Origin: Micavibrio sp.
GTDB lineage: Bacteria > Pseudomonadota > Alphaproteobacteria > Micavibrionales > UBA9664
NCBI GenBank assembly: GCA_002699085.1
Contig: PAAR01000020.1
Location: 1-43,296, forward strand
Direction of reading: 5' to 3'
Length of the DNA stretch: 43,296 bases
Positions 11,980 to 43,296 of the stretch are shown piece by piece. A program made the translations under genes and the position numbers. The notes below the pieces were generated by a model. The model saw nothing but the letters and a program-made list of their open reading frames with translations. It had not been told where the DNA came from and ran no database searches. Numbering within the stretch: position 1 is the stretch's first letter; the number at the start of each line of letters is the position of its first letter.

Positions 11980-12699
11980 TTACAACCCTAAAGCAGCCTT
12001 TTGAATCACTGTTAACTCTTTGACAGATTTCTCGGCCAAATCCATCAGCTCATTAAGTTGTGCCCGTGAGAACGGCTTATCTTCAGCTGTACCCTGCACT
12101 TCAACAACACCTAAGCTTTCTGTGATAACAAAATTCGTATCTGCTTCTGCTGTTGAATCTTCGGCATAATCAAGATCAGACACACAAACACCTTGATAAA
12201 TGCCGCATGAAACGGCTGACACAAATTCAGTCACTGGAATTTCTGTAATCATGCCAATTTTTTGCATATGTTGGAATGCCAACATCAGAGCCACAAAACC
12301 ACCTGTAATAGAAGCCGTCCGTGTGCCACCATCCGCTTGGATTACATCACAATCAACCTTAATCTGACATTCACCCATTTTCTCCATATCAACAACCGCA
12401 CGTAAAGCCCGCCCAATCAAACGTTGAATTTCTTGTGTACGGCCAGATTGTTTGCCGCGGGCTGCTTCACGGTCAATCCGATCGCCTGTTGAGCGTGGCA
12501 ACATACCATATTCAGCCGTTACCCAGCCCTTACCTGTATTGCGCATCCACCCTGGCACTGATTTATCTACTGAGGCTGTGCACAAAACATGTGTATTACC
12601 AAACTTGATAAGGCATGAACCTTCTGCGTGCATATTTACACCCGTTTCAATTGTCACATCACGCATTTGGTCTGGCTTACGGCCTGAAGGTCTTGTCAT
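11980..12699 (-). CDS. rph: Ribonuclease PH
   Basis: 239-residue 3'-5' phosphorolytic exoribonuclease trimming tRNA 3' ends. The ATG at 12699 gives the usual family start, [15 protein letters not shown], and usual length, with AAGAAAG upstream; a longer frame to 12762 would add 21 unlikely residues. Signatures are [60 protein letters not shown] and AVSCGIYQG. It is the first gene of an operon with rdgB and hemW and is divergent from hrcA over 92 bases. On its strand TTGACA (12762-12757), 17 bases, CATTCT is a possible promoter sharing the -35 region of hrcA. Confidence 0.96.
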
Positions 12700-12755
12700 T
12701 ATTTCATCTTTCTTAAATTTATTTATGCTGGGCAGAATGGCCGTATAAAGAAGAA

Positions 12756-12784
12756 TTGTCAATAAAGCCCTGGGCCGCTATATT
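12756..12784 (+). promoter_or_regulatory. hrcA promoter, predicted leaderless start
   Basis: TTGTCA (12756-12761) and TATATT (12779-12784) with a 17-base spacer form a near-consensus sigma-70 promoter. The hrcA ATG is at 12792, seven bases after the -10, exactly where transcription should begin. The ATTGTCAAT at 12755-12763 also reads as TTGACA on the minus strand, so one element may serve the divergent rph promoter. No CIRCE inverted repeat is visible here. Confidence 0.65.
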
Positions 12785-12791
12785 CTTATCC

Positions 12792-13835
12792 ATGTCATCG
12801 ACCCTCTTTAAAGAATTAGATAGCCGATCACGGGCGATTTTTGAAACCATCGTGACAAGCTATATGCAAACAGGTGAACCTGTAGGCTCTCGCACGCTTT
12901 CCCGTATTGCGGGGTTAGATCTATCACCTGCAACGATCCGTAATGTTATGGCCGATCTTGAAGAGCTTGGCCTTGTTTTATCACCGCATAAATCCGCTGG
13001 TCGCCTGCCTTCGCAAACAGGTCTAAGGTTTTATGTTGACGGCCTCATGGAATTAGGCGCTTTAAGCAAAGAGGAGCGAGAAGCTATTAAAGCAGAATGT
13101 TCGGCCAGTGGACGCTCAATGCGTGAAATGTATGAACAAGCCACAACTACTCTATCAGGCCTATCACAATGTACAGGTCTTGTTGTTGCACCAAAAGCCA
13201 ACAAACCATTGAAACAAGTACAGTTTGTACCACTCGGCCCTGGACGTGTTCTAGCCGTGATGGTCTCACAAGATGGTATGGTTGAGAATCGTGTATTAGA
13301 AACCACCATTGATACACCAGCCACGGCCCTTATTTCCGCAACAAATTATCTAAACAATCATATTGCAGGCAAAACATTAGACGATGTCCGCAGCACAATA
13401 TTGGATGAAATTGAAGCGCAGAAAGCACAACTAGATTCCTTGAGCAGCGATCTCGTCAAACAAGGCCTTGCGCTTAAAACAGGCGATGATGACATGCACT
13501 TAATCGTTCGTGGTCAGCGTAATCTGCTTAATAACATTAAAGCCATGGAAGATTTGGAAAAAGTACGCAAAATATTCAGTGCCTTAGAAGAAAAAGAGAG
13601 CATGATGCGTATTTTGCAGCAAACACAAAATGCCCAAGGCGTGCAAATATTTATCGGCACTGAAAATGATGCTTTTTCACATGATGGCTTGTCTATGATT
13701 ATTTCTCCGTATAAAAACACAGAAGAAAAAGTCATTGGCGCAATAGGCGTGATTGGCCCAACCAGATTAAACTATGGCCGTCTGATCCCTATTGTAGATT
13801 ACACAGCCAAAGTTATGACGAAATTAATGGGGTAA
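12792..13835 (+). CDS. hrcA: Heat-inducible transcription repressor HrcA
   Basis: 347-residue repressor that binds CIRCE operators, usually at groESL. The N-terminal winged helix is evident in SRAIFETIVTSYMQTGEPVG, DLSPATIRNVMADLEELG and SPHKSAGRLPSQTGLRFYVD. GAIGVIGPTRLNYGRLIP near the end is the family signature. I chose the ATG at 12792, giving MSSTLFKELD; the frame opens at a TTG at 12756 that lies inside the promoter. No Shine-Dalgarno precedes the ATG, fitting a leaderless message. It leads the gene string fkbM-like, grpE, dnaK, dnaJ and is back to back with rph, the standard alphaproteobacterial arrangement. Confidence 0.96.
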   Translation: MSSTLFKELDSRSRAIFETIVTSYMQTGEPVGSRTLSRIAGLDLSPATIRNVMADLEELGLVLSPHKSAGRLPSQTGLRFYVDGLMELGALSKEEREAIKAECSASGRSMREMYEQATTTLSGLSQCTGLVVAPKANKPLKQVQFVPLGPGRVLAVMVSQDGMVENRVLETTIDTPATALISATNYLNNHIAGKTLDDVRSTILDEIEAQKAQLDSLSSDLVKQGLALKTGDDDMHLIVRGQRNLLNNIKAMEDLEKVRKIFSALEEKESMMRILQQTQNAQGVQIFIGTENDAFSHDGLSMIISPYKNTEEKVIGAIGVIGPTRLNYGRLIPIVDYTAKVMTKLMG

Positions 13836-13836
13836 T

Positions 13837-14667
13837 ATGCAAGAAATGAACACTCAATACGGCAGCTATAAGCCAAATGCGCTCAAGCAATCAGTAATAG
13901 GCCTAACCCGTACATTGCCAAATAATTGGTTTGGAAAGCGTCTTGGCTTTACTTTGCGCAAACTCGTTCACGGCAAAAATCGTTTGCCTATCGATACAGA
14001 TGTTTTTGGCCTAAATCTTCGTCTGCACGGCTATGATAATAAATGCGAAAAACGTGTTGTGTGCTTGCCGCAAATGTTCGACCCCGAAGAACGCCATGTT
14101 TTAGAAACAGCTGCACGTGCTAAAGGCAAAGATTTTAACTTTATTGATTTAGGCGCAAATGTTGGCCTCTATAGCCTTTTCATGGCAAGCCTTAAACTGC
14201 CGAACACTAAAATAATTGCGATAGAGGCAGACCCTTATATCTATCAACGCCTACGATTCAACATTGATAATAACAACTTGGACATTCAAGCATTTAATAT
14301 GGCAGTCAGTGATACAGACGGTACGATTACTTTAAACATTAACCCGAAAAACCGTGGTGAGAATAGCATCATACATGCCCAAGGTGACGGCGAAAAAATT
14401 GACGTGAAATGCCAAACACTCCTGAGCATTATGGACACGCAAAACATGAAACAAGCCGATGCAATAAAGCTTGATTTAGAAGGGGCAGAAGAAACAGTGC
14501 TTACATCTTTCTTTGCCCATGCCCCCAAAAGCCGACTACCAAAACTTATTCTCATTGAGAATGCGCCAGAGCGCTGGGAGAGCGATATCTATGCCCTCAT
14601 TGAGCAGCAAGGCTATAATCTACATTTTGCGAATAAATCAAATCGTGTTTATACCTTGAAAAAATAA
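13837..14667 (+). CDS. FkbM-family SAM-dependent methyltransferase
   Basis: 276-residue methyltransferase of the FkbM family, which mostly O-methylate sugars or other small molecules in glycan or secondary-metabolite synthesis. The SAM site is FIDLGANVGLYSLFMA near residue 103, with IAIEADPYIYQRLRFNID after the second strand and AIKLDLEGAEETVL as the family acidic motif. The first ~80 residues form an N-terminal extension with a basic stretch. It begins one base after the hrcA stop and is followed 23 bases later by grpE, so it is embedded in the heat-shock operon. The acceptor is unknown and no glycan genes are nearby. Confidence 0.87.
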   Translation: MQEMNTQYGSYKPNALKQSVIGLTRTLPNNWFGKRLGFTLRKLVHGKNRLPIDTDVFGLNLRLHGYDNKCEKRVVCLPQMFDPEERHVLETAARAKGKDFNFIDLGANVGLYSLFMASLKLPNTKIIAIEADPYIYQRLRFNIDNNNLDIQAFNMAVSDTDGTITLNINPKNRGENSIIHAQGDGEKIDVKCQTLLSIMDTQNMKQADAIKLDLEGAEETVLTSFFAHAPKSRLPKLILIENAPERWESDIYALIEQQGYNLHFANKSNRVYTLKK

Positions 14668-23007: not shown

Positions 23008-24003
23008 TCAAAGTTTTTCCAACACATTCACAAGATTAAGTGCGATACCTTTATGAATATTGTCAAAGCATATCCAAAGACATAGACCATTCTCGCCAGC
23101 ACTATCTTCACGGATACGAGAAACATAGACGTCATCTTCGCCGTTTATTTCCTCTGGTGTCATATATTCAAGTTCTTCATTCTCAAGATCAATCACTGTA
23201 ATACCACGTGTTTGGCGCAATGCTTCAATCGCCTCCATCGCCGAGATTTCATTATCACAATCAATATGTACCATCGCAGAATGCCCAACAAAAACGGGTA
23301 CACGGACAGAGCTAATCGTAATACCCATTTTACCTTTTAGAATTTTCTTCGTTTCACCTTTAATCTGGAATTCATCCTCTGTGCCACGATCATCCATAAA
23401 AGCACTCGTTTGTGGCAATAGGTTAAAAGCAATTTGTTTCGGGAATTCTGTGTTCTGAAGAGGATTGGCCATAAAAATTGAACGTGTTTGATTAAACAAT
23501 TCATCCATAGCCCGCTGTCCTTCTGCTGATACTGATTGCAAAATTGTTGCATGAATGCGGTTGATTTGTGCTTTGGCATGAATTGGCGCAAGGGCAGCGG
23601 CTAAACCAACCACCGCCGGATGAGGCACCGCAATCATACCATTATGAGTCTCTATATCAGCCGCATTCACATCTGAAACGATAAGCGGCACATCAGGATC
23701 CATTCTAAAAGCCGAAGAACCATCAATAAAAACAGCCCCCGCTGCTTTTACTTTCATTGCAATCTCTTTAGAAACTTTGGTACCTGCCAAATTAATAACG
23801 ATATTTGTTTTAGAAAAATCAAAGCCTTCTAATTTCACAACAGGCAACTCGCCCTCTTCACCATAGGTAACCACTTGCCCCGTTTGAGCCATAACATCCA
23901 CAGCATATAGCGCATCCGTTTTTACATTTCTTTCTTCGATAACAGCTAAAAGCTCACGACCAATATGGTTAGCAGCGCCGATAACAGCAATTTTATGTGA
24001 CAT
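23008..24003 (-). CDS. Aspartate-semialdehyde dehydrogenase homologue lacking the catalytic cysteine (USG-1-like)
   Basis: 331-residue protein with the aspartate-semialdehyde dehydrogenase fold: NADP-binding start KIAVIGAANHIGRELL, the phosphate-binding segment FIDGSSAFRMDPDVPLIVSDVN, and the late motifs RVPVFVGHSAMVH and DNIHKGIALN. The active-site segment, ANPNCST in true Asd, reads AVPHPAVVG (about residues 125-133), so the nucleophilic cysteine is replaced, as in E. coli USG-1. The enzymatic reaction is therefore unlikely, and the role is unknown. AAAGGAG is a strong RBS. It is divergent from the histidine kinase gene and upstream of the ribosomal operon. Confidence 0.82.
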   Translation of the reverse strand: MSHKIAVIGAANHIGRELLAVIEERNVKTDALYAVDVMAQTGQVVTYGEEGELPVVKLEGFDFSKTNIVINLAGTKVSKEIAMKVKAAGAVFIDGSSAFRMDPDVPLIVSDVNAADIETHNGMIAVPHPAVVGLAAALAPIHAKAQINRIHATILQSVSAEGQRAMDELFNQTRSIFMANPLQNTEFPKQIAFNLLPQTSAFMDDRGTEDEFQIKGETKKILKGKMGITISSVRVPVFVGHSAMVHIDCDNEISAMEAIEALRQTRGITVIDLENEELEYMTPEEINGEDDVYVSRIREDSAGENGLCLWICFDNIHKGIALNLVNVLEKL

Positions 24004-24074
24004 AGTTTCTCCTTTAAGGCTTCAAGGTACAAAATACGGTTTCTTTCATGAATCACAAGAGGTAAACTACAGAA

Positions 24075-26300
24075 ATGACATATAAGCCTGATTTATTAGA
24101 CAAAATCCCTTTGCCTTGCTTAATTATCACAAAAGATAAAAGCGAATCATGCCTTTATGCGAATGACTTATTCCTTGAAATCGCAGTTTCCAATGCCATA
24201 AAAGATCAAAAACTTGGTCAACTCATCTCTGGCTTAACCATAGGCCAGTGCAAAACAAAATCTCAAATTGAAATAAATGGTCAAATATACAAACCTACAT
24301 TGCAAGACATTGATTACACAGGAAAAAAAGCCACGTTAATTTTCTTGTCTAATGTTACAGAGCTAGCGCAGTCAACCTCCAAATTCAAAGAAGCGGCCAA
24401 TGAAGCCGAAGCAATGATTGAGCTGAAATCTAATTTCTTAGCCACCATGTCACATGAAATTCGCACCCCAATGCAATCCGTTTTTGGTTTGCTTGAGCTT
24501 ATTGCCGAAGAAAAACCGCAACAATCAATCATGGATATGGTCACTACCGCACGCGAATCTGCCAGCGGTCTGTTAGAGATTCTTGATGACATTTTAGACC
24601 TTGCCAAGCTTGATGCTGACAAAATGGAAATTGATGATTTTGAAGTGCCCGTACGGCTTATGGCACGCGGCACGCTGGAAGCACTGAGTGTTAAAAAACA
24701 TGGCCCAAATGTCGCAATGATTGATGAAATTAGCGAAGACGTGCCTTTTGTTATTAAAGGCGACCCTAAACGGCTGCGCCAGATATTGATGAATTTTATG
24801 AGCAATGCGCTAAAATTCACAAAGAAAGGCCACGTAAAACTCCGTATCCACACAAATGTTGAGCACGTTGATGCACCCAAAGACGGCGTTGCCTTACGTT
24901 TTGAAGTGGAAGACACAGGCATGGGGATGTCAGAAGAAGTACGTTCAAAACTCTTTCAACCTTTTGTCCAAGCCGATAGTTCTACTGCCAGAAAATTTGG
25001 TGGAACAGGCCTAGGTCTATCAATCTGTAAAAAATTGGTTGAGGTTATGAACGGCGTCATTGGTGTGGATAGCACACCAGGGAAAGGCTCCACATTCTGG
25101 TTTGAGATACCGACATATATTGTAGGGACAGATCAAACAAGTGTTGAACTCCCTAATCTTGATGGCATTGCTGTTTTGTCTGTAGAAGACCACCCACAAG
25201 GCGGTAAAGAAATCGTCAATTCACTGCGTTCAATGGGTGCAGAGGTAACCCTTGTCACCACATATAAAGAAGGCCTAGCCATGGCCAAGCGACGCCCCTT
25301 TGATGTGGCGGTTATTGACCAAGGTCTACCCGATGGCTTAGGCATTGATCTTTTAAAAGAACTATCAGAGATCCGCCCTTTTATGGGACAAGTTATGTAC
25401 ACTGTCCGTGATGATTACGGCTTACAACATGCCTGTAAAGCGATGGGGGCCACCTATCTAGTAAAACCTGCCAGCCGAGCAGGTCTTGGCGAAGCTGTTG
25501 AAGCTGCGTCAAGCCATGCCAGCAAACACATTGTGGATGGACCACAAAGACTGCTCATCGCTGAAGACACATTGAGCGTTCAAGATGTTTTGCGGAGACA
25601 ACTAGAATTATTAGGCGTTGAGGCTGACTTTGTAGAAGATGGCGCAGAAGCACTCAAAGCAATGGCCACAGGTAAATACGGTATTTTAATGACTGACCTT
25701 CATATGCCAGCCGTTGACGGCTACGAAGTGGTAAAGACTATTCGTGATAAAGAAAAAGGTACTGATCTTCATACACCCATCATTGTTTTAACTGCCGATG
25801 TGCAAATGGCGCAGCGCCAAGCCTATCTTGTTGAAGGCTTTGACGAATGTCTTTTAAAGCCCGTCAGTCTTGGTCAATTCCGTCGTCTCCTGATGCGTTG
25901 GGGTATCTTATCGGAAGAAAAAAATATTGAAGCCTTAGAAGAAGAAAACCCTACTTCAACAAATAAACCAATCATTGATACGGTTGCGATGAAAAACCAA
26001 TTAGGTGCTTTTGATCTGGATAGCCTTAACATGATCCGTATGTTTGTTGAGATGACAAAACCTGTCATTGAAAAGCTCATTACCGCCAATGAAGCTAAAG
26101 ACACCCATCAAGTCGGTGAAATAGCCCATAGCCTTAAAGGCTCGGCACGTTCGGCTTGTTGTATGATTTTAGGAGATTTAGCGTCTGATGCACAAGATGC
26201 CGCAGAACATAATCGTGCCTACGATAAATTTATCCCACAAATCGAAAAAGCCTTTGCTGATATCCCTGCCGAGATAGAACGCTTAAAGAAAACGCTTTAA
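24075..26300 (+). CDS. Soluble hybrid histidine kinase with two receivers and an Hpt domain
   Basis: 741-residue phosphorelay protein without transmembrane helices. Residues ~8-100 look like a divergent PAS sensor. The HisKA domain follows with H127 in MSHEIRTPMQ, then HATPase_c with N box LMNFMSNALKFTKKG, G1 box VEDTGMGM and G2 box FGGTGLGLS. Receiver one (about 364-480) has acceptor D415 and K464; receiver two (about 492-610) has D541 and K595. The C-terminal Hpt carries H685 in IAHSLKGSARS. All four phosphotransfer sites are intact, so a complete His-Asp-His relay is possible. AGAGGT serves as RBS. It is convergent with rnr, one base apart. Its partner regulator is unknown; the receiver at 35499 is one candidate. 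Confidence 0.93.
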   Translation: MTYKPDLLDKIPLPCLIITKDKSESCLYANDLFLEIAVSNAIKDQKLGQLISGLTIGQCKTKSQIEINGQIYKPTLQDIDYTGKKATLIFLSNVTELAQSTSKFKEAANEAEAMIELKSNFLATMSHEIRTPMQSVFGLLELIAEEKPQQSIMDMVTTARESASGLLEILDDILDLAKLDADKMEIDDFEVPVRLMARGTLEALSVKKHGPNVAMIDEISEDVPFVIKGDPKRLRQILMNFMSNALKFTKKGHVKLRIHTNVEHVDAPKDGVALRFEVEDTGMGMSEEVRSKLFQPFVQADSSTARKFGGTGLGLSICKKLVEVMNGVIGVDSTPGKGSTFWFEIPTYIVGTDQTSVELPNLDGIAVLSVEDHPQGGKEIVNSLRSMGAEVTLVTTYKEGLAMAKRRPFDVAVIDQGLPDGLGIDLLKELSEIRPFMGQVMYTVRDDYGLQHACKAMGATYLVKPASRAGLGEAVEAASSHASKHIVDGPQRLLIAEDTLSVQDVLRRQLELLGVEADFVEDGAEALKAMATGKYGILMTDLHMPAVDGYEVVKTIRDKEKGTDLHTPIIVLTADVQMAQRQAYLVEGFDECLLKPVSLGQFRRLLMRWGILSEEKNIEALEEENPTSTNKPIIDTVAMKNQLGAFDLDSLNMIRMFVEMTKPVIEKLITANEAKDTHQVGEIAHSLKGSARSACCMILGDLASDAQDAAEHNRAYDKFIPQIEKAFADIPAEIERLKKTL

Positions 26301-33122: not shown

Positions 33123-34115
33123 ATGAGCCAAGCCATTGAACAAGGATTAATAGAGGCACGCGCTGGACGCGATTTAAGCTGTTTTGACCTATACTCTATC
33201 GACCAATTAAGCCTTGCGGATATAGACCTTATCTATGACCTTGCCCGCCTTTTCCGAAAAGCGAAGACAGAAAAATTATCTCTCAATAAAGGCTGCAGTC
33301 TTGTCCATGCGTTTTTTGAAAACTCTACACGCACGCTTGCCAGCTTTGATCTATCCGCTAAAAACCTTTCAATGGATACCAGTTCAGTCAGTGGTAATTC
33401 ATCCGTTAAAAAAGGCGAAAGCTTTTTGGATACAGCCCAAACACTCGATTCTTATAATTTAAAAGCCATCACTATTCGCTCTGCCGAAGCAGGTGTTGCC
33501 GAGATGCTATCTCGACATGTGCGGGCTTCTGTTATCAATGCAGGCGATGGCTGGCATGAACACCCGACACAAGCACTACTCGATGGCTTAACCATGTTAG
33601 ACCACAGTAAATCAAAAACGCTACAAGGAAAAACAATTTGCTTTGTGGGGGACATTGTCCACTCACGAGTCTTTGGCTCTCTCGTAAGATTACTCAAAAA
33701 ACTAAAAGCGACTATCCGTGTAGCGGGACCATTAACCTTAATGCCCGCTTATGTTGAAAAATTTGGCGTTACTGTTTACACCAATGTTGAGGAAGCACTA
33801 GCTGGCGCCGATATTGTTTATGCATTGCGTGTCCAAGAAGAACGAGGCGCCAATGGCTTCATCCCCACTTTGCGCGAATACTCAAAAATGTTTGGGATCA
33901 GTCGCAAACGCTTAGACTTGGCCGCTAAAGATGCGATTCTAATGCATCCTGGCCCTGTGCGTCGTGACGTAGATGTCCACTCTGCTCTCGTCTCAGTTGA
34001 CGAGCAATCACAAATTTTACAACAGGTTGAAAATGGGATGGCGGTGCGCAAAGCTGTTCTTTGGCTATTATGCAATCGTATGGACAATAAAGTGAAGGAG
34101 ATGACAAGATTATGA
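33123..34115 (+). CDS. pyrB: Aspartate carbamoyltransferase catalytic subunit
   Basis: 330-residue enzyme joining carbamoyl phosphate and aspartate in pyrimidine synthesis. The carbamoyl-phosphate motif is FENSTRTLASFDL (S68-T71) and HPTQALLDGLTM (H147) is the second signature; the aspartate domain includes DIVYALRVQEERG and MHPGPVRRDVDV. No pyrI regulatory subunit is adjacent. It overlaps pyrC by ATGA, the two probably being made as partners in a complex, as known for class A-type arrangements. Confidence 0.97.
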   Translation: MSQAIEQGLIEARAGRDLSCFDLYSIDQLSLADIDLIYDLARLFRKAKTEKLSLNKGCSLVHAFFENSTRTLASFDLSAKNLSMDTSSVSGNSSVKKGESFLDTAQTLDSYNLKAITIRSAEAGVAEMLSRHVRASVINAGDGWHEHPTQALLDGLTMLDHSKSKTLQGKTICFVGDIVHSRVFGSLVRLLKKLKATIRVAGPLTLMPAYVEKFGVTVYTNVEEALAGADIVYALRVQEERGANGFIPTLREYSKMFGISRKRLDLAAKDAILMHPGPVRRDVDVHSALVSVDEQSQILQQVENGMAVRKAVLWLLCNRMDNKVKEMTRL

Positions 34116-35498: not shown

Positions 35499-35879
35499 GT
35501 GAGTCAAAAAATATTAATTGCCGAAGATAATGACTTTGTACGCATGCAAATCGTTACCTTTCTTAAAGAAGCAGGCTATGAGTGCATAGAGGTTACAGAT
35601 GGTAACGCCGCACTTAAAACAATAGACGAGAGCTTTGCTGCTGCGATTATTGACGTACGCATGGAACCATTAAACGGCTTTGATTTTGTTAAAAATCTTC
35701 ACAGCGAAGAATTATATACGCCCATCGTGTTTGTAACTGGGGATCAAAACCCTGATTTGCTTTCTGAGGCTGGGAAACTCGGTGTGAATGCCGTATTACT
35801 AAAACCAGTCCAAAGAGAACGCCTCATTCAGATGATTGAAAGGCTTGTTAAGGCTGGGCCTAGGAAAGTAAGAATTTAG
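35499..35879 (+). CDS. Stand-alone response-regulator receiver protein
   Basis: 126-residue CheY-like single receiver. Acidic pocket ED at residues 9-10, phospho-acceptor D52 (AIIDVRMEP), switch T80 (FVTGD) and K102 (VLLKP). There is no output domain, so it must act by protein contact or as a phosphate shuttle. It starts with GTG at 35499, with AAGGA seven bases before. A weak promoter can be drawn at 35426-35456 (TTGCGT, 19 bases, TCTAAT). It is the first gene of the pilus/secretion cluster, nine bases before the secretin start, suggesting control of assembly or of the ATPase. Confidence 0.92.
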   Translation: MSQKILIAEDNDFVRMQIVTFLKEAGYECIEVTDGNAALKTIDESFAAAIIDVRMEPLNGFDFVKNLHSEELYTPIVFVTGDQNPDLLSEAGKLGVNAVLLKPVQRERLIQMIERLVKAGPRKVRI

Positions 35880-35888
35880 AGATTGCAC

Positions 35889-37883
35889 ATGACTAAAACA
35901 AAAAACACATATTTTAAACAGAGTATATTGAGTGCTTTCTGTTTTTTATCTTTTGCTTTAACTGGCTGCGCACAGGTGGATGTGCCTAATCCTAGAACGG
36001 TCGACATTGATGCCCCTACTCGTGCAAATGTCCGTAGCAAAGGTATTAACGAGGGTTATGAGCCCGTTGTATATGTTCAGTTGGGTTCGGATGTATTAGT
36101 GCCTCAAGCGCCAAGCGCAAGTAAATTACCTGATGTTGAAATTGGCCCGATAGAGTTTAGAAACGAATCTCTCGCTTTGGCGTTACAGCTAGTTTTAGAT
36201 GATTACGATATTCCACTCGCTTTTGAAACCCAGACGGCCTTTTCCCAAACAATCACCGTTTCTAAATTAAAAGGCCCTTTACAAACAGTAGTACGTAAAC
36301 TTTGTGGCCTAGCTAATTCTTATTGCGCCTATGACGATGGTATTTTGACAGTGAAAGACCTTGAAACTTTTTCTGTGACCATGCCTCCTGTCGATGATAC
36401 GCAGGTTTTTGATGATATTGCAGCAGGTTTGGCAGCTATTACAGGTGGCACACCCGTTGTCGATCCATCTACACGTACAATCATTTATACAGCAACCAGC
36501 CGTAATGCTAAGCGCGCTGAAGACTATTTTGAAAAACTTCGTAGCAACACTGCTTTAATTGTGTTCGAAACGTATATTTGGGAAGTGACTTTGAGTGGCG
36601 CCAATACAACAGGTATTCGCTGGGATCAAATTGAAGACTTTGGTGCTTTTGGTGGTTTCAGCACTGGTGTCAGCATCAATGGGACACCTGACTTAAATGT
36701 AGGGGCACCAATCAGCATTGGTCTGCCGACGGGTTCTGGTAATGTTAATTTAGACACAGGTGATATCCTGCAATTCCTTTCTTCACAAGGGAATGTAAAA
36801 ACTATTTCTCAGCCTCAGCTTACTGTTTTATCAGGCTCGGAAGCGACATTACGTGTTGCAGAAACACAGAACTATATTGAATCACTTTCTCGTACAACAG
36901 ATGTTCAGGGCGATGAAACAGTTTCAACCACGACAGGCACAGTTGATAGTGGTTTCACACTGACCATTGGCAGTGTGTGGGATCAGGCAACTGTTTACGG
37001 TAATGTCGAAATCGAACTTGATGAATTCTTAGGTTTTCAAAACTTTGATGCAGGTGATGGCAATACATTGCAGCTTCCAAGAACAAGTGAGCGTGACTTG
37101 ACAACACAAGTACGTATTCGCCCAGGCGATTCTGTTTTAATCGCTGGCCTTGTAACGGAAAGGGATAATTTCAATACATCAGGCCCTGGTGTATCTCGCC
37201 CACTTTTCCCGACATCCCGTTCAGCATCTGTTGAAAACACAGAGCTTGTTGTTATGTTGAAGCCTCGTGTCATTGCCTATGTGCCTGAAAAAGATCAGGC
37301 TTATATGAAGGAAAAGCTTGCTAAAAAGCAAGACTACAGCCTTGCTGTTTCAACAATTGAGCCAACAACCAATATTACATCAGCGCCAGCACCAGAAGCA
37401 CCAAGCCGCTCAACTAGAGTGCCAGCGCCAGCACCTGTTGCCGCAACACCGGCCATTAAACCTGTCACACAAACGCCTTTATCGGCCTACAGAGAGCAAG
37501 TAAAAGCGTCCACACCCATTGAAGAACCTACTAAAACAACACGTTATGTTGCGCCAACACCTGCTGTTGAGAAAATCACACAACCTGCAGCACCTGCACC
37601 AGTAGCAGCTGCGCCTGTAACACCAACCCCGTCGCCTATCCCAAGTTATGTGGCCGTCTCTTCTCCGCCTGCTGACATGGAATATCCAGTGCGCAATACT
37701 TCGGTGACAACATCACCTGCGCCAAAAGTGGCAACACAACCTCAAATAGTGACAGCACCAACAGCTTCTACGGCACCTGTTGACACGCCTATCCCTGCTT
37801 ATCCGACATATACCAACGATACAGCAAATAGCATAAACACAATTCCCTTAGACCTTCTAAACCCAGGGAGAAGCACGCAATGA
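35889..37883 (+). CDS. Lipoprotein secretin of type IVb pilus/T2SS-like system
   Basis: 664-residue outer-membrane secretin. The ATG at 35889 gives a lipoprotein signal with lipobox L24-T25-G26-C27. A region at ~85-155 resembles an STN/secretin N-terminal fold (IEFRNESLALALQLVLDDYDIP), followed by an N1-like domain, and the secretin beta-domain covers ~300-466 (LQFLSSQGNVKTISQPQLTV... RPGDSVLIAGLV ... ELVVMLKPRVIAYVP). An N-terminal lipid anchor fits PilN/TcpC/BfpB-type secretins. Unusually, about 200 residues rich in Pro, Ala and Thr follow the secretin domain. The stop overlaps the next ATG (ATGA). The frame also opens at a TTG two codons upstream. Confidence 0.88.
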   Translation: MTKTKNTYFKQSILSAFCFLSFALTGCAQVDVPNPRTVDIDAPTRANVRSKGINEGYEPVVYVQLGSDVLVPQAPSASKLPDVEIGPIEFRNESLALALQLVLDDYDIPLAFETQTAFSQTITVSKLKGPLQTVVRKLCGLANSYCAYDDGILTVKDLETFSVTMPPVDDTQVFDDIAAGLAAITGGTPVVDPSTRTIIYTATSRNAKRAEDYFEKLRSNTALIVFETYIWEVTLSGANTTGIRWDQIEDFGAFGGFSTGVSINGTPDLNVGAPISIGLPTGSGNVNLDTGDILQFLSSQGNVKTISQPQLTVLSGSEATLRVAETQNYIESLSRTTDVQGDETVSTTTGTVDSGFTLTIGSVWDQATVYGNVEIELDEFLGFQNFDAGDGNTLQLPRTSERDLTTQVRIRPGDSVLIAGLVTERDNFNTSGPGVSRPLFPTSRSASVENTELVVMLKPRVIAYVPEKDQAYMKEKLAKKQDYSLAVSTIEPTTNITSAPAPEAPSRSTRVPAPAPVAATPAIKPVTQTPLSAYREQVKASTPIEEPTKTTRYVAPTPAVEKITQPAAPAPVAAAPVTPTPSPIPSYVAVSSPPADMEYPVRNTSVTTSPAPKVATQPQIVTAPTASTAPVDTPIPAYPTYTNDTANSINTIPLDLLNPGRSTQ

Positions 37884-39544
37884 TCTTCCTTAAAAAGCCC
37901 CTACAACGTTCATTTTGGTTGAGCCTTACATTAAGTGCCTTATTTATTGTAAATAGTACCAATATTGCTTTTGCTCAATCTGCTTTTGATGACCCTATTA
38001 GTGCCGCAGAAGAAGCGATGCAAAACTCAGGCAAGTCAGGTGGTGGGCTTATTGCTGTGAATGACCCTACCGATGCTGGATCAATCACAACAGGCTCCAC
38101 AGCGCAAGTCGTTGTGCTATTCCGCAACGAAGGCATTAAGCCTGTCGATTTTCAAGACCTTAGCCTTTATCCATCTTCTAATATCTCAGCGAATGTTCAG
38201 AATAACGCCTGTAACAATGAACCACTCACAGCGGGTGCTGAATGTGCGGTAATCTTATCTGTGCGCGGCGTATCGGCTGGCGATTTTCGTCTATCCATGC
38301 TCGCAAAACATAGTGGCTTAAAGCGTTTGGTTAGTGGCACAGTTACCGGGACAGTAATCGCTGGAGAAGAGTCTGAGAAAGTTGGACAGGCCGTTGATAT
38401 AGAGATGGTGCCTTCTGTTGTTGAATTTGGTAGTATTTCATCGAGCCGTCCAGTTATAAAATCTGTATCACTACGCAACGTTTCCACAAAAAAACTAAAC
38501 ATTAATGACATTTCCATCAATAGCTTTGACCAAGCAGGTTTTACCCTCAATCACAACTGTGGCGACTCATTGGACGAAGGCGAAGGGTGTTTGGCCACAA
38601 TCACATGGGCGCCCTTGGTCGAAGGTCCTGTTAGCGGTTTTCTGGTCGTCTCACATAGCGGAAAAACCAAAGTGTCTAACAGCGCATTATCTGGCACTTA
38701 CAGCGCCGCCCAACCCTCTACAGCAAATGTTTTCCCAAATGCTATTCCAAACAAAGGCTTACTTATCTCAGATATCACACAATTTGATTTCGGTAGCATT
38801 GCCAGCCCGTCTGCATTAACAGCCACTTTGGTCAATTCAGGAGATGGTGTTTTAACGTTAAAACAACTCTTTTTATCCGAAGGCAGTAACAATCTTTCTA
38901 TTGCCCCTACCGGCTGTGCGAAAAATGGCGTTTTAAAGCCAACCGAAGCTTGTGCACTAACTTTAAAATGGTCGCCTCAATCTCCATTAGGCCTAGTAGA
39001 CAATGTGCAAATTATCCATGATGGTGCCAGAGGTGTTTTTGTAATGCCTGTTAGTGGAACATCAACTGTGGAAGCACCAAGCGCCGCAGAAAATACATCG
39101 GCAGGCACCTCTTCTGAGCTAGAGGTTTCGCAAGAAGATAGCAATGAAGATGACAGTGATGAAGTTAATGATGCTGCACTTGATGCTATTATTAATGAAC
39201 AGCTAAGCAATGATAGTGGCCTAGCAGCAATTACACCAAATGTTGTCGCAGCACCGACATTTTCAAAAACATCTGTATTAGAAGGATACCGCATATCATC
39301 GTTGTCTAATAATAAAGCGACAATTAATGGTAATGAAGGTAGTAAACTTATACAAAACGGACAAAAAACACGTATTGGCGGCGTTATCTGGGATATCGAC
39401 ATAAAAGACAACACTATTAAATTCACGTCTGGCAAGAGTAAAGCCACACTCTATTTTGACACCAATTTTAACGTTCAGAACAACGAATCTATTCTAGAAC
39501 AAGAACAAACAGAAACTGAAGATGAATCTTCAGAATCGCAGTGA
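37880..39544 (+). CDS. Exported ASH-domain protein with possible PilP/GspC-like C-terminus
   Basis: 554-residue periplasmic or inner-membrane-anchored protein with a signal sequence or anchor (residues ~12-32, cut possibly after AFA). Three immunoglobulin-like repeats of the ASH/choice-of-anchor D type follow at ~55-160, ~175-275 and ~295-395. Each contains a cysteine pair in the same place (C111/C122, C227/C237, C346/C358) before a strand such as CLATITWAP or CALTLKWSP. An acidic linker (~400-445) leads to a small module at ~462-530 (VLEGYRISSLSNNKATINGN... IGGVIWDIDIKDNTIKF) that resembles the beta domain of PilP/GspC adaptors. ATGA-coupled to the secretin. I recognise no characterised homologue of the whole protein. 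Confidence 0.75.
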   Translation: MIFLKKPLQRSFWLSLTLSALFIVNSTNIAFAQSAFDDPISAAEEAMQNSGKSGGGLIAVNDPTDAGSITTGSTAQVVVLFRNEGIKPVDFQDLSLYPSSNISANVQNNACNNEPLTAGAECAVILSVRGVSAGDFRLSMLAKHSGLKRLVSGTVTGTVIAGEESEKVGQAVDIEMVPSVVEFGSISSSRPVIKSVSLRNVSTKKLNINDISINSFDQAGFTLNHNCGDSLDEGEGCLATITWAPLVEGPVSGFLVVSHSGKTKVSNSALSGTYSAAQPSTANVFPNAIPNKGLLISDITQFDFGSIASPSALTATLVNSGDGVLTLKQLFLSEGSNNLSIAPTGCAKNGVLKPTEACALTLKWSPQSPLGLVDNVQIIHDGARGVFVMPVSGTSTVEAPSAAENTSAGTSSELEVSQEDSNEDDSDEVNDAALDAIINEQLSNDSGLAAITPNVVAAPTFSKTSVLEGYRISSLSNNKATINGNEGSKLIQNGQKTRIGGVIWDIDIKDNTIKFTSGKSKATLYFDTNFNVQNNESILEQEQTETEDESSESQ

Positions 39545-39562
39545 TTATATTGAGTGACAATT

Positions 39563-41392
39563 ATGGTTGATGAAACACCCATAGTAGAAGAATCTGAAAC
39601 AACGTCTTCTGATGTACCTGAAAAAAGGAAAGAAGACCGACGTCAGGCGGATAAAGGTTCACCAACAGGCCATGAACGCCGGCAAGCAAGAGAACGTCGG
39701 ATTGCTTATCAGGTTGAAGGCCGTGAACGCTACCTAGATATGGTTCAAAAAGAGCGCTCTTTGTTATTGCAACAAGGTGTCTCTCGCTCTACAGAACAAC
39801 TCCTTGACGCAGCAGGTGCTTTTGCCACATCCGATAATCAAGACCATGATGACGAACAACAAACGGCTCGTGAAACCGCCAGTGGTGACCAATTACGTGC
39901 CATATTACCTGTGCAATCGTGGCTACCGCTAAATATCCATCTTATTGGCCTACGTGACGGTATCTTGCGTATTGCACCTCTAAATGAATTACTAGATCGC
40001 CAACGAGATTCTCTTTTATCAACAGCCCAGCGCAGTGGCTTAAAAGTCGATACCATTGAAGCTGAGATCTGGGATCGTGCCGAATTACTAGAAACATTGC
40101 GTGCCGTTCACGATCTTTCGGCCGACCGTTGCGAGAAAACACTGGCAGAGTGGCTGGCTGACATTGATAACGGCTTACTCCTTAATCAATTCCAGCGGGA
40201 TATGCTCGCTGAAACGCTGCAAATGCGCGCCTCAGATATTCACATTGTTCAAGACAATAATCCTGACGCGCCTAACTGGATCAAATATCGTGTCGATGGC
40301 GATCTCATCCCAATGCACTTATTACCTGCCGAAGCAATGGCACGTTTAACGACGCTGTTAAAGCGTGATGCTGGTCTTAACTTTGGTGATAAAACAACAC
40401 CAAAAGACGGCCGTTTCAGCTTTTCATGGCAAGGACGTATGGTCGATATTCGTGTCGCCGCTGGGCCACAAGGTATTGACGGTGAGAAACTTACCCTACG
40501 TTTACTCGACCGTGCAGCCCTCAAAGGCTTTGACGAGTTATTTAAACGCCATGAAGATGTTGGCGATCATTTGGCTAAACTTCTTAACCCTGAAATCAAG
40601 GGTGGTGGTGGTCTTATTCTCTTATCAGGCCCCACAGGTTCTGGTAAAACCACAACGCTTTATGCCTGTGTGCAACAAATTGACCGTCGTCGTCGTCATG
40701 TTTTAACGATTGAAGACCCTATTGAGTATGAAATGCGCTATGCTACACAATGGCAAGTGCGTGCTGGCGATAAAGAAGGCGATTTTGCCTCACTGATCCG
40801 TGCATCAATGCGTCATGACCCTGACTACATCATCATCGGAGAGATGCGTGATGGCGAAACAGTTGAAACAGCCCTCAAAGCTGCCGAATCAGGCCATACC
40901 GTTATCACGACTGTTCATGCTGATACCGCTATTCAAACATTTGAACGTTTACGGTCTCTCATGCCGCATGAACGTGAACGCTCATCAACATTTACACTTG
41001 CGCAACAAGTGAAAGCTATTTTGAACCAGCGTTTGGTTAAAACCCTTTGCCAGGGCTGTGCACATACAAGCGTCGCTGGTGAAGTATTATCCGAGCAGGA
41101 TCTTGAAGAAACAGGCCTTAAACCCAATGAAAAAGTCCGCACAATCAATACCAGTGGATGCGATTTGTGTAATCGTACAGGGATTTTAGGCAGAACTTTG
41201 TTGCTTGACACACTTCTTGTAAACTCCAATGTTCAACAACGTCAAAAAGTCTATGATTCACTCATGAGTAACGCAAATACCATCACAGCAATTGAGGGGG
41301 TTGTATTCCACTCTCGTCGTGAAGGTTTGATTGACCTCGTTAGGAATGGTCTCGTTGATCCTACATTAATCAGCTCTTATCTTGAAGAATAG
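39563..41392 (+). CDS. GspE/PilB-type assembly ATPase
   Basis: 609-residue hexameric traffic ATPase powering pilus or pseudopilus assembly. The ATG at 39563 is preferred; a GTG at 39554 would add three residues (numbering below counts from it). An acidic then Arg-rich leader (RKEDRRQ, HERRQARERR) and a divergent N-terminal domain precede the motor: Walker A GPTGSGKT (359-366), Asp box LTIEDPIEYE, Walker B YIIIGEMRDGETVETAL, His box SGHTVITTVHADTA. A tetracysteine zinc site, C499-QG-C502 and C536-DL-C539, marks assembly rather than retraction ATPases. It follows the ASH gene by 18 bases. No retraction ATPase is seen. Confidence 0.95.
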   Translation: MVDETPIVEESETTSSDVPEKRKEDRRQADKGSPTGHERRQARERRIAYQVEGRERYLDMVQKERSLLLQQGVSRSTEQLLDAAGAFATSDNQDHDDEQQTARETASGDQLRAILPVQSWLPLNIHLIGLRDGILRIAPLNELLDRQRDSLLSTAQRSGLKVDTIEAEIWDRAELLETLRAVHDLSADRCEKTLAEWLADIDNGLLLNQFQRDMLAETLQMRASDIHIVQDNNPDAPNWIKYRVDGDLIPMHLLPAEAMARLTTLLKRDAGLNFGDKTTPKDGRFSFSWQGRMVDIRVAAGPQGIDGEKLTLRLLDRAALKGFDELFKRHEDVGDHLAKLLNPEIKGGGGLILLSGPTGSGKTTTLYACVQQIDRRRRHVLTIEDPIEYEMRYATQWQVRAGDKEGDFASLIRASMRHDPDYIIIGEMRDGETVETALKAAESGHTVITTVHADTAIQTFERLRSLMPHERERSSTFTLAQQVKAILNQRLVKTLCQGCAHTSVAGEVLSEQDLEETGLKPNEKVRTINTSGCDLCNRTGILGRTLLLDTLLVNSNVQQRQKVYDSLMSNANTITAIEGVVFHSRREGLIDLVRNGLVDPTLISSYLEE

Positions 41393-41417
41393 GCGTTTAT
41401 AAAGATTTCTTTAAGGA

Positions 41418-41446
41418 TTCACAGTTAGGGTTGCTTTTGTTATACT
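41418..41446 (+). promoter_or_regulatory. Near-consensus sigma-70 promoter inside the pilus cluster
   Basis: TTCACA (41418-41423), exactly 17 bases, TATACT (41441-41446), each five of six to consensus, in the 81-base gap between the ATPase and the membrane-protein gene. The predicted start near 41453 leaves a leader of about 20 bases with AGAGAAATAGGA upstream of the ATG at 41474. It would allow the downstream genes to be expressed separately from the upstream part. Confidence 0.55.
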
Positions 41447-41473
41447 ACAAGAGAAATAGGATTTAACCTCACT

Positions 41474-42688
41474 ATGCGTCAATGGATTGCCGAAATTGCT
41501 ACAGATACTACTTCAGGTGTTAAAACATCAGTAGAATCTTTTTATCTACCCCGTGAGGAAGATGTACGACGCGAAATTATCAAACGTGGTGCGTATTGTC
41601 TTAGCATAAGAGCCTATGAACGCAGCCCTATGGAACGCCTGTTGGCACGTTCTTCTTGGTGGCAAGTACAGCTTTTACGCGGCATTCAATTTAGATCGAC
41701 ATCCACATCCCCAGGCGTTGCCTTTTGGCGCCTTATTGAAGGGGAAACCAACCCCACACGTCAAAACATTCTATCACCTGCCAAAGAAGCCTTATCACGA
41801 GGCCTAGGAATCATTGATGCCCTTAAAGCGCTGAATATTTTTGATCGAGGCACGCTGGCCATTCTCTCTGCTAGTGAAAAAGCGAATAAATTGGTAGAGG
41901 GTATTCCTCACGCTATTTCAACCATTACACAAAAGCGTAAAAATATGCGGGCGATTGGTGGAACAATGGCTTGGCTTGGTTTTGACGTTCTAAGTATCGT
42001 ACAGGCCATGTTTTGGGGTAAAGACCTCGTTTTAGGTTGGTTCCATGATAATGCGCCAACAGAAGTTGATAAACTCGCTGAATATAATGATGTTGTCGGC
42101 AAGCTTGAGCTCACATGGAACATCCTCATTCTTATTGCCGTTGCTGCAACAGTATTCATGGTATGGTGTATCCTCTCTTTCTTCCTTAATCGTGGGAAAG
42201 ATGACTGGCCAACAGCACGTATCGTCAGAAAAATCCCTCTCATAGGTGCTTACATGCGTGATCTAGGCTTTGCCGATTCAATGTCTACAGCGGCACGTAT
42301 GTTACGTGGTAAAGTACCTATTAACGAGATGATGATCCAATCAGCTGAATCGGCATCAGTGCCAGATATTGCACTTTATTGGCATGCTGCCGAGCAAGAT
42401 TTGAAACGCGGTATTCCTTTAGGGTCAGCAATGGACAGAGAACCTCTTAACCGCAGTGAACGCCTTGAGATTGCTAGCTTGTCAGACCTTAGTCAGATTG
42501 CTACAATTATGGAGTCGATTTCGGAGATGCGTGCCCAAAATGCCAAGGGGAAACACAGCCTTATTCTATGGCTGGCTTTTGGTTTAACGGGCCTCTATCT
42601 CGCCATTGCGTTTGGTAGTGCGATTTTTGCGCTAACAGTTATGAATATGTCTATGGACTCTCTATTAGGTGGGCTCACAAGTTTTTAG
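41474..42688 (+). CDS. GspF/PilR/TcpE-like inner-membrane platform protein
   Basis: 404-residue inner-membrane platform protein of the GspF superfamily, the partner of the assembly ATPase. Two cytoplasmic T2SSF-like helical domains (~70-160 and ~255-355) alternate with membrane helices at about 161-181, 215-238 and 361-390. ARMLRGKVPINEMMIQSAE and the RGIPLGSAM segment are the recognisable T2SSF parts. The N-terminal ~50 residues (EEDVRREIIKRGAYCLSIRAYE) look like the GspF entry segment. Sequence is divergent, closest in style to PilR/TcpE of type IVb pili. It has its own promoter just upstream. Confidence 0.85.
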   Translation: MRQWIAEIATDTTSGVKTSVESFYLPREEDVRREIIKRGAYCLSIRAYERSPMERLLARSSWWQVQLLRGIQFRSTSTSPGVAFWRLIEGETNPTRQNILSPAKEALSRGLGIIDALKALNIFDRGTLAILSASEKANKLVEGIPHAISTITQKRKNMRAIGGTMAWLGFDVLSIVQAMFWGKDLVLGWFHDNAPTEVDKLAEYNDVVGKLELTWNILILIAVAATVFMVWCILSFFLNRGKDDWPTARIVRKIPLIGAYMRDLGFADSMSTAARMLRGKVPINEMMIQSAESASVPDIALYWHAAEQDLKRGIPLGSAMDREPLNRSERLEIASLSDLSQIATIMESISEMRAQNAKGKHSLILWLAFGLTGLYLAIAFGSAIFALTVMNMSMDSLLGGLTSF

Positions 42689-42711
42689 GGTATGAAAGAT
42701 TAAAAAAAGTT

Positions 42712-43296
42712 ATGACAGACACAGTGAATACAAATCCTGAATCTACCGCTAAAATACCCTCAAAGGCAGATAAAGCGTTCAACGAAATACGGGATCGCGT
42801 CGGTCGTGTGGCACACGCAGCGACTGGCGGTGGATTAAGAACAGATAACTTAGTGCCTTACTTGCCAGCGGATATTATTGGCGGTTCTATCCCGCATGTA
42901 TTAGGCATGGAAGACGAAGCCGTCTGGAATGCGGCCTCTCAGGCCTGTGGGACAGAAAAGGTGCATTATTGCTACACTGTTGATAACAAACGCTGCTGGT
43001 ATTTAGCCGCACCCTCTACCACATTCGCCTCTAATCCAGACAGTTGGTGCCCTCTAGCCGCTGCACTACCTGGAAACAGCGAGTTTTGGGACAAAGAAAC
43101 TGTTTACATATACGAACAAGAAGGGATCGCCTCAGCATTGAGATGGGATCCAGAGACGAACCGTATGCAAGTATTCATTGGGCCTGCCAGAACAATACTT
43201 CCACGTATTCAAAGTATGGATGCCAATTTTGTCACAATTAATGGCGAGGCGGCGAAAGTTGTACCTTGGCAGCAACGTGCTTTAAAATCGGAGCAA
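42712..43296 (+). CDS. Unrecognised protein of the pilus cluster, 5' part
   Basis: An ATG at 42712 opens a frame of 195 codons without a stop to the right edge of the window. The N-terminus is polar with a helical stretch (KAFNEIRDRVGRVAHAA); the rest alternates strands and loops and contains YCYTVDNKRCWYLAAPS, ETVYIYEQEGIASALRWDPE and RMQVFIGPARTILPRI. Five cysteines are seen. No signal peptide or membrane segment occurs so far. By position it could be a cytoplasmic or PilO/TcpD-like component, but no motif supports a specific assignment. It starts 23 bases after the platform-protein gene. Confidence 0.75.
   Translation, partial: MTDTVNTNPESTAKIPSKADKAFNEIRDRVGRVAHAATGGGLRTDNLVPYLPADIIGGSIPHVLGMEDEAVWNAASQACGTEKVHYCYTVDNKRCWYLAAPSTTFASNPDSWCPLAAALPGNSEFWDKETVYIYEQEGIASALRWDPETNRMQVFIGPARTILPRIQSMDANFVTINGEAAKVVPWQQRALKSEQ

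Follow-up and report, generated by a model that had tools for sequence, protein, structure and literature searches.

Which machine do the six genes at the end of a Micavibrio sp. contig encode, and does it belong to one of the pilus or secretion classes already described? The window analyzed here is the entire contig C22 (43296 bases) of a 31-contig, 1.89 Mb genome. The six open reading frames lie on the forward strand in the order given by the first-pass annotation, namely receiver, secretin, ASH protein, ATPase, platform and a sixth gene, which we call X (Table 1). That annotation also described ATGA overlaps in the upstream part of the cluster. One such overlap joins the secretin and ASH genes (37880-37883) and is the only one within the cluster; the other belongs to pyrB/pyrC (34112-34115). 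The ATPase and platform genes are separated by 81 bases. X is truncated at position 43296 because the contig stops there, an assembly break that goes beyond a mere window edge. The window holds the first two thirds of what is probably a complete, uncharacterized pilus-building machine.

Table 1. Positions of the machine components and of a related kinase in the window, with the continuation of X on a second contig.
Feature	Position	Strand	Evidence
Stand-alone receiver, single-domain response regulator	35499..35879	+	Response_reg 3.8e-22
Lipoprotein secretin	35883..37883	+	Secretin 2.8e-16; listed start TTG, ATG two codons on
ASH protein	37880..39544	+	Signal peptide, three ASH/Ig domains, linker, C-terminal small beta domain
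ASH protein C-terminal domain, GspC homology-region/PilP-like connector (putative)	39266..39454	+	hhalign to GspC
Extension-type ATPase, GspE/PilB superfamily, four invariant cysteines	39554..41392	+	T2SSE 4.5e-80
Platform protein, divergent GspF	41474..42688	+	T2SSF 2.3e-4, below curated cut-off; conserved position
X, 5' part, predicted cytoplasmic actin-like domain of GspL/BfpC/PilO2-like protein	42712..43296	+	Ortholog match, fold
Remainder of X	End of contig C21 (locus L095)	-	Second half of split ortholog match
Hybrid histidine kinase HisKA-HATPase-REC-REC-HPt	24075..26300	+	55% identity to kinase of locus L009

A search with the ATPase returned 55 close loci from MAGs of Micavibrio and other Alphaproteobacteria, at 64-76% identity. 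The same order, receiver, secretin, ASH protein, ATPase, platform, X, Y, pil1 and pil2, recurs in about 50 loci and hence is not a product of chance. The X ortholog match is split between two contigs of the genome, with the end of C22 matching at 8.9e-79 and the end of C21 at 2.6e-19; the continuation was located through this ortholog search, and a few residues of X are apparently missing between the two ends. On C21, X is followed by Y, pil1, pil2, a second pil2 copy (pil2b), an rpmG-like small gene and PleD-/DivK-like genes. The link between the contigs is supported by a genome of the same genus in which the operon is unbroken and is flanked by the same genes, pyrC and PleD/DivK. Thus, the prepilin-like genes that were to be sought to the right of the window exist, both on C21 and, as pil1 with pil2, in more than 40 other loci. 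In 38 of 43 loci the receiver gene is directly 5' of the secretin gene. A small A24 prepilin peptidase gene is divergent and adjacent in 35 of 40, and a kinase-like gene is convergent with pil2 in 40 of 42, one of which (L012) matches PleD and not this kinase. The platform protein is 69% identical to its ortholog in L009. At the level of sequence, the secretin, ATPase, platform, X/Y pair and two prepilin-like families that lack Glu5 (E5) form one co-conserved operon. An asd-like gene and the hybrid kinase, a pair that normally flanks the operon, are found in the window at 23008-26300, about 9 kb upstream. They lie beyond topA, dprA, plsY and pyrBC, and the local neighborhood has therefore been rearranged.

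No Pfam or NCBIfam family matches X (325 aa), and hhalign reports no sequence relation of X to GspL or PilO2, or of Y to GspM (under 2%). The AF2 model of X (pLDDT 79.7, pTM 0.53) predicts an alpha/beta domain on the cytoplasmic side, a long membrane-to-coil helix and, as a third element, a small ferredoxin-like domain. Foldseek alone gave weak matches (PilM, best, E 0.067; BfpC, E 0.11). Structural realignment was clearer and placed PilO2 of the R64-type pilus (PilO2Bp) at the top (Z 8.7, 131 residues, 3.5 A), followed by BfpC (Z 7.1) and GspL proteins (Z 5.7-6.4), while the C-terminal part of X aligned with the periplasmic domain of PulL (Z 5.5). A Z below 8 is indecisive by itself, and the top rows for X are nonetheless dominated by parts of type IVb pili and of the T2SS. 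PilO2 and BfpC are known to share a fold without sequence identity (PMC3984277). The modeled architecture of X is GspL/BfpC/PilO2-like. Y crosses the membrane with a single helix, its periplasmic part contains two cysteines that are invariant, and its position and topology would suit a GspM/PilO role.

The first-pass annotation set the ASH protein outside the standard pilus sets. Its ASH domains do distinguish it from R64, but it is not an added oddity, as its end resembles a connector. The protein matches the ASH (8e-9) and HYDIN Ig (1e-7) families, and its AF2 model (pLDDT 77.7) has structural matches to HYDIN/CEP192 Ig domains. For the C-terminal domain, hhalign gives a 60-column alignment to the GspC homology region with a probability of 43% (66% with the divergent set), as against at most about 5% for unrelated controls. 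The connector assignment comes from this profile alignment, since a structural search with the full-length ASH protein returns only its Ig domains. In locus L118, a 139-aa protein with the connector domain alone replaces the ASH protein. The C-terminus thus looks like a GspC/PilP connector with Ig/ASH domains in front. With X of GspL/BfpC/PilO2-like design and a connector-like ASH end, no core part of a type IV filament machine is missing. The features that mark the superfamily are an extension ATPase, a platform, prepilin-like subunits and a prepilin peptidase, all of which occur here.

The pilin-like proteins carry the strongest novelty, which is that the local set uniformly lacks Glu5. A type III signal with Gly and Glu had been anticipated; the Gly at -1 is there and the Glu at +5 is not. 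All 102 pilin-like proteins (102/102) have Gly(-1) and a hydrophobic N-terminal helix, with cleavage predicted from these sequences. None of the 102 has an acidic residue at positions 1-20 and hence none has Glu5; position 5 is L, Y, P or M. One further pilin-like sequence was not matched by the search expression and is excluded from the 102; its printed start, GNVLLYV, has no early acid. The pil1 start, GNVLFLILIAVALFAALSYAVTQS, is nearly invariant in Micavibrionales, where the whole protein is 35-50% identical. Alpha- and betaproteobacterial pil1 products have in common Gly(-1), a Cys-x-x-x-Asn motif (CxxxN) and a second Cys, and both Cys are invariant. Conserved in pil2 are Gly(-1), a Cys-Pro-Gly motif, a Trp and an Asn. 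The N-terminal 70 columns are common to the two families (97.5%, hhalign), and pil1 is duplicated in some operons. Pil1 and Pil2 gave no PilS-type Pfam match; the weak hhalign matches are to GspK (24-32%) and PilS (4-20%, with a shared local motif around one Cys). Their leader and helix, together with these matches, suggest a pilin fold. Glu5 is held to drive or stabilize the docking of each new subunit in type IV filaments (PMC10191384). It is a usual, though not strictly defining, feature of the main pilin, and would be absent from it here if Pil1 is the main subunit.

The secretin has the lipobox SFALTGC. Its best curated model is MshL (3.6e-31), followed by PilN (3.5e-24), both below the equivalog cut-offs. 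The tetracysteine site reported for the ATPase is borne out, with C499, C502, C536 and C539 (CxxC...CxxC) invariant in 25 orthologs. In the ATPase tree, this set is one clade (100/99), apart from R64-type PilQ (100/100) and GspE (100/99) and also separate from MshE, the sampled PilB-type proteins and HofB; its exact sister is unsure. The ATPase thus has a clade of its own among the sampled classes and does not fall within a characterized one. The secretin tree recovers the same clade (100/99), to which PilN and a secretin from a Vibrio plasmid are loosely joined (93/94). The MSHA proteins MshE and MshL, each sampled sparsely by one Aeromonas representative, are placed outside this clade. The reference sampling of the trees is limited, with a single MshE, few PilB-type proteins, and no TcpT, BfpD or LngH.

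X is present in 94 of the 126 genomes of the order. Among 386 sampled alphaproteobacteria it was found in 11, five within the order and six outside it, and a phylum-wide sample of 397 gave a single weak, partial case outside the class (G734). Six divergent loci keep the order from secretin to Y, and five of them have pilin-like genes adjoining or near. Divergent alphaproteobacteria and two betaproteobacterial plasmids retain X, Y, and pil1 and/or pil2 with significant scores. The plasmids are those of Rhodoferax ferrireducens T118 and Methylibium petroleiphilum PM1, both typed as conjugative (X, 8e-24 and 8e-27; Y, 3e-10 and 1.5e-19; best pil1, 4e-25; best pil2, 3e-23). In L118 the set sits within a VirB-type T4SS cluster, with VirB8/VirB9 genes on one side and VirD4/VirB11/VirB10 genes on the other; both trees place this set with the plasmid forms. 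A lineage within a VirB cluster and two conjugative plasmids fit what is expected of a mating pilus. The same locus encodes a VirB10/TrbI protein (12207-14030) with an ASH/HYDIN-type Ig domain, the same kind of domain as in the connector of the machine. Downstream of the pilin genes, the Rhodoferax T118 plasmid (L121, 18104-22736) encodes a protein of 1049 aa as well as a phage tail assembly chaperone. This pair is reminiscent of a tip adhesin with a tail-fiber-like end, as in PilV of R64. The survey of Denise et al. names type IVb pili in Gammaproteobacteria, Acidithiobacillia and Nitrospirae (PMC6668835), so an alphaproteobacterial machine of this kind appears to be missing from its list. 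We found no paper describing the gene set in searches on Micavibrio, Micavibrionales, ASH/pilus and Rhodoferax/Methylibium, with few subscription papers within reach.

Other pilus parts are found in the same genome. A separate R64-like cluster on C1 (38000-57000, L096) contains PilN, PilO (PF06864), PilQ, PilR, a PilS/Bundlin match and a transglycosylase, and is joined to TraI- and DotB-like conjugation genes, here in an alphaproteobacterium. C30 (42000-58000, L098) encodes a PilT-like ATPase, a PilD with methylation domain, a TPR protein and a GspF paralog, without PilB; this cluster may serve the machine of the window. A Tad locus lies apart from the operon, and the genome has prepilin peptidases on C30 (PilD) and C27 (Tad). 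Given the R64-like, Tad and PilT/PilD/GspF/TPR clusters, the machine of the window is additional to them. On C10 (L099, 5592-7157) there are two adjacent prepilins with normal Glu5 (GFTLVELSIVLVIISLI), and the retrieved stretch has no assembly genes beside them. An N_methyl match on C23 was set aside as probable contamination; this 8.5 kb contig (L100) carries a prepilin, an RHS-like fragment and genes resembling recombinases, and its sequence gives the impression of Bacteroidota origin.

The candidate identities can be weighed against this background. The first-pass annotation was reminded of R64, and the likeness is apt in design. The R64 thin pilus (type IVb, IncI plasmids) is also built from a compact operon with a lipoprotein secretin, connector, ATPase, platform and actin-like single-pass protein, is also found on conjugative elements, and has the actin-like inner-membrane protein (PilO2/BfpC) to which X comes closest, albeit by fold only and without a sequence match. 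Yet this is a different machine, as the true R64-like cluster elsewhere in the genome attests. The R64-type clades of ATPase (100/100) and secretin (100/96) exclude this set, in spite of the grouping of its secretin with PilN. The operon has X and Y in place of a recognizable PilO2, and X has no PF06864 match, unlike the true PilO of the genome. Beyond the weak PilS alignment noted above, matches to PilS, lytic transglycosylase (PilT of R64) and PilV are absent from the operon, the pilins lack Glu5 and the connector carries ASH domains. An ordinary R64-type type IVb pilus is therefore very improbable. The MSHA pilus provides the best curated model for the secretin, and MshM or MshN was not seen in the operon. 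The small prepilin peptidase of most relatives, without N-terminal methylation domain, recalls Tad/Flp pili (T4cP), but here there is one platform gene and a GspE-type ATPase. A T2SS-like machine, in which a short pseudopilus of Pil1 and Pil2 in the periplasm drives exoproteins out through the secretin for prey digestion, would account for the functional set D, C-like, E, F, L-like and M-like, with X similar to GspL and the connector to GspC. It would also suit an operon that contains no retraction ATPase (a PilT-type ATPase is elsewhere in the genome). In Micavibrio aeruginosavorus, a T2SS annotated without GspC, G, H and K is reported to have most of its genes up-regulated during attachment (PMC3189940), and those genes may correspond to this operon. 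However, the order here is D-C-E-F-L-M followed by only two or three E5-less prepilins after Y in the place of GspG-K. Profile models find no GspG-J match among them and GspK at only 0.005-0.026, far below the cut-off. ATPase and secretin fall outside the T2SS clades, and conjugative plasmids and a VirB cluster fit a pilus better. We consider such a secretion machine unlikely.

A further alternative keeps the pilus and changes its fiber. Prepilins with E5 encoded elsewhere, on C10 in this genome, might be the main subunits, with Pil1 and Pil2 as minor or tip pilins only. N_methyl prepilins are encoded elsewhere in all 12 of the 12 machine-bearing genomes tested, and the C10 pair are orphans. 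A known E5-less subunit caps the tip complex (PMC10191384), so Pil1 and Pil2 could all be minor subunits. The same genomes, however, hold other candidate machines (R64-like, Tad and T4aP) for those prepilins, all pilin-like proteins of the operon lack E5 even on the plasmids, and pil1 is in places duplicated. An E5-containing fiber is thus improbable, about as much so as the secretion machine. As the probable identity we favor a type IV filament machine that is complete and comes nearest to a type IVb pilus. Judged from sequence comparison, it is most likely an undescribed variant of a type IVb-like adhesive pilus.

In the type IVb-like pilus that we favor, the secretin would form the outer-membrane gate. 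The GspC homology-region-like end of the ASH protein would tie it to the inner membrane, with the Ig/ASH domains lining the periplasmic gap. X, with its actin-like domain, one membrane helix and ferredoxin-like domain, would dock the ATPase and, with Y, couple it to the platform. A prepilin peptidase, the small dedicated A24 enzyme in most relatives and probably PilD of C30 here, would cut after Gly(-1). Pil1, with its nearly invariant 20-residue helix and conserved cysteine pair, would be the main subunit, with Pil2 in a minor or tip position, in a filament that would pack without the Glu5 salt bridge. The receiver and the hybrid kinase probably time the use of the pilus. Its role is plausibly adhesion to another cell; on the plasmids this may be mating-pair attachment, by analogy with the R64 thin pilus.

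The analysis suggests roles for four families that have no Pfam or NCBIfam model (X, Y, pil1 and pil2). A natural machine whose entire local pilin set lacks Glu5 also makes the Glu5 rule testable. The presence of the machine in conjugative elements and in epibiotic predators suggests cell-to-cell attachment, and with X in roughly three of every four genomes sampled from the order, it is a candidate prey-attachment device in Micavibrionales. Tentatively, and with rather less confidence than in the pilus itself, these observations may be read jointly as a further subtype of bacterial type IV pilus, in addition to T4a, T4b, Tad, Com and MSHA, one with an entirely Glu5-less fiber. Conjugative elements would have spread it, and in the predatory order Micavibrionales it would have become fixed as an organ of attachment.
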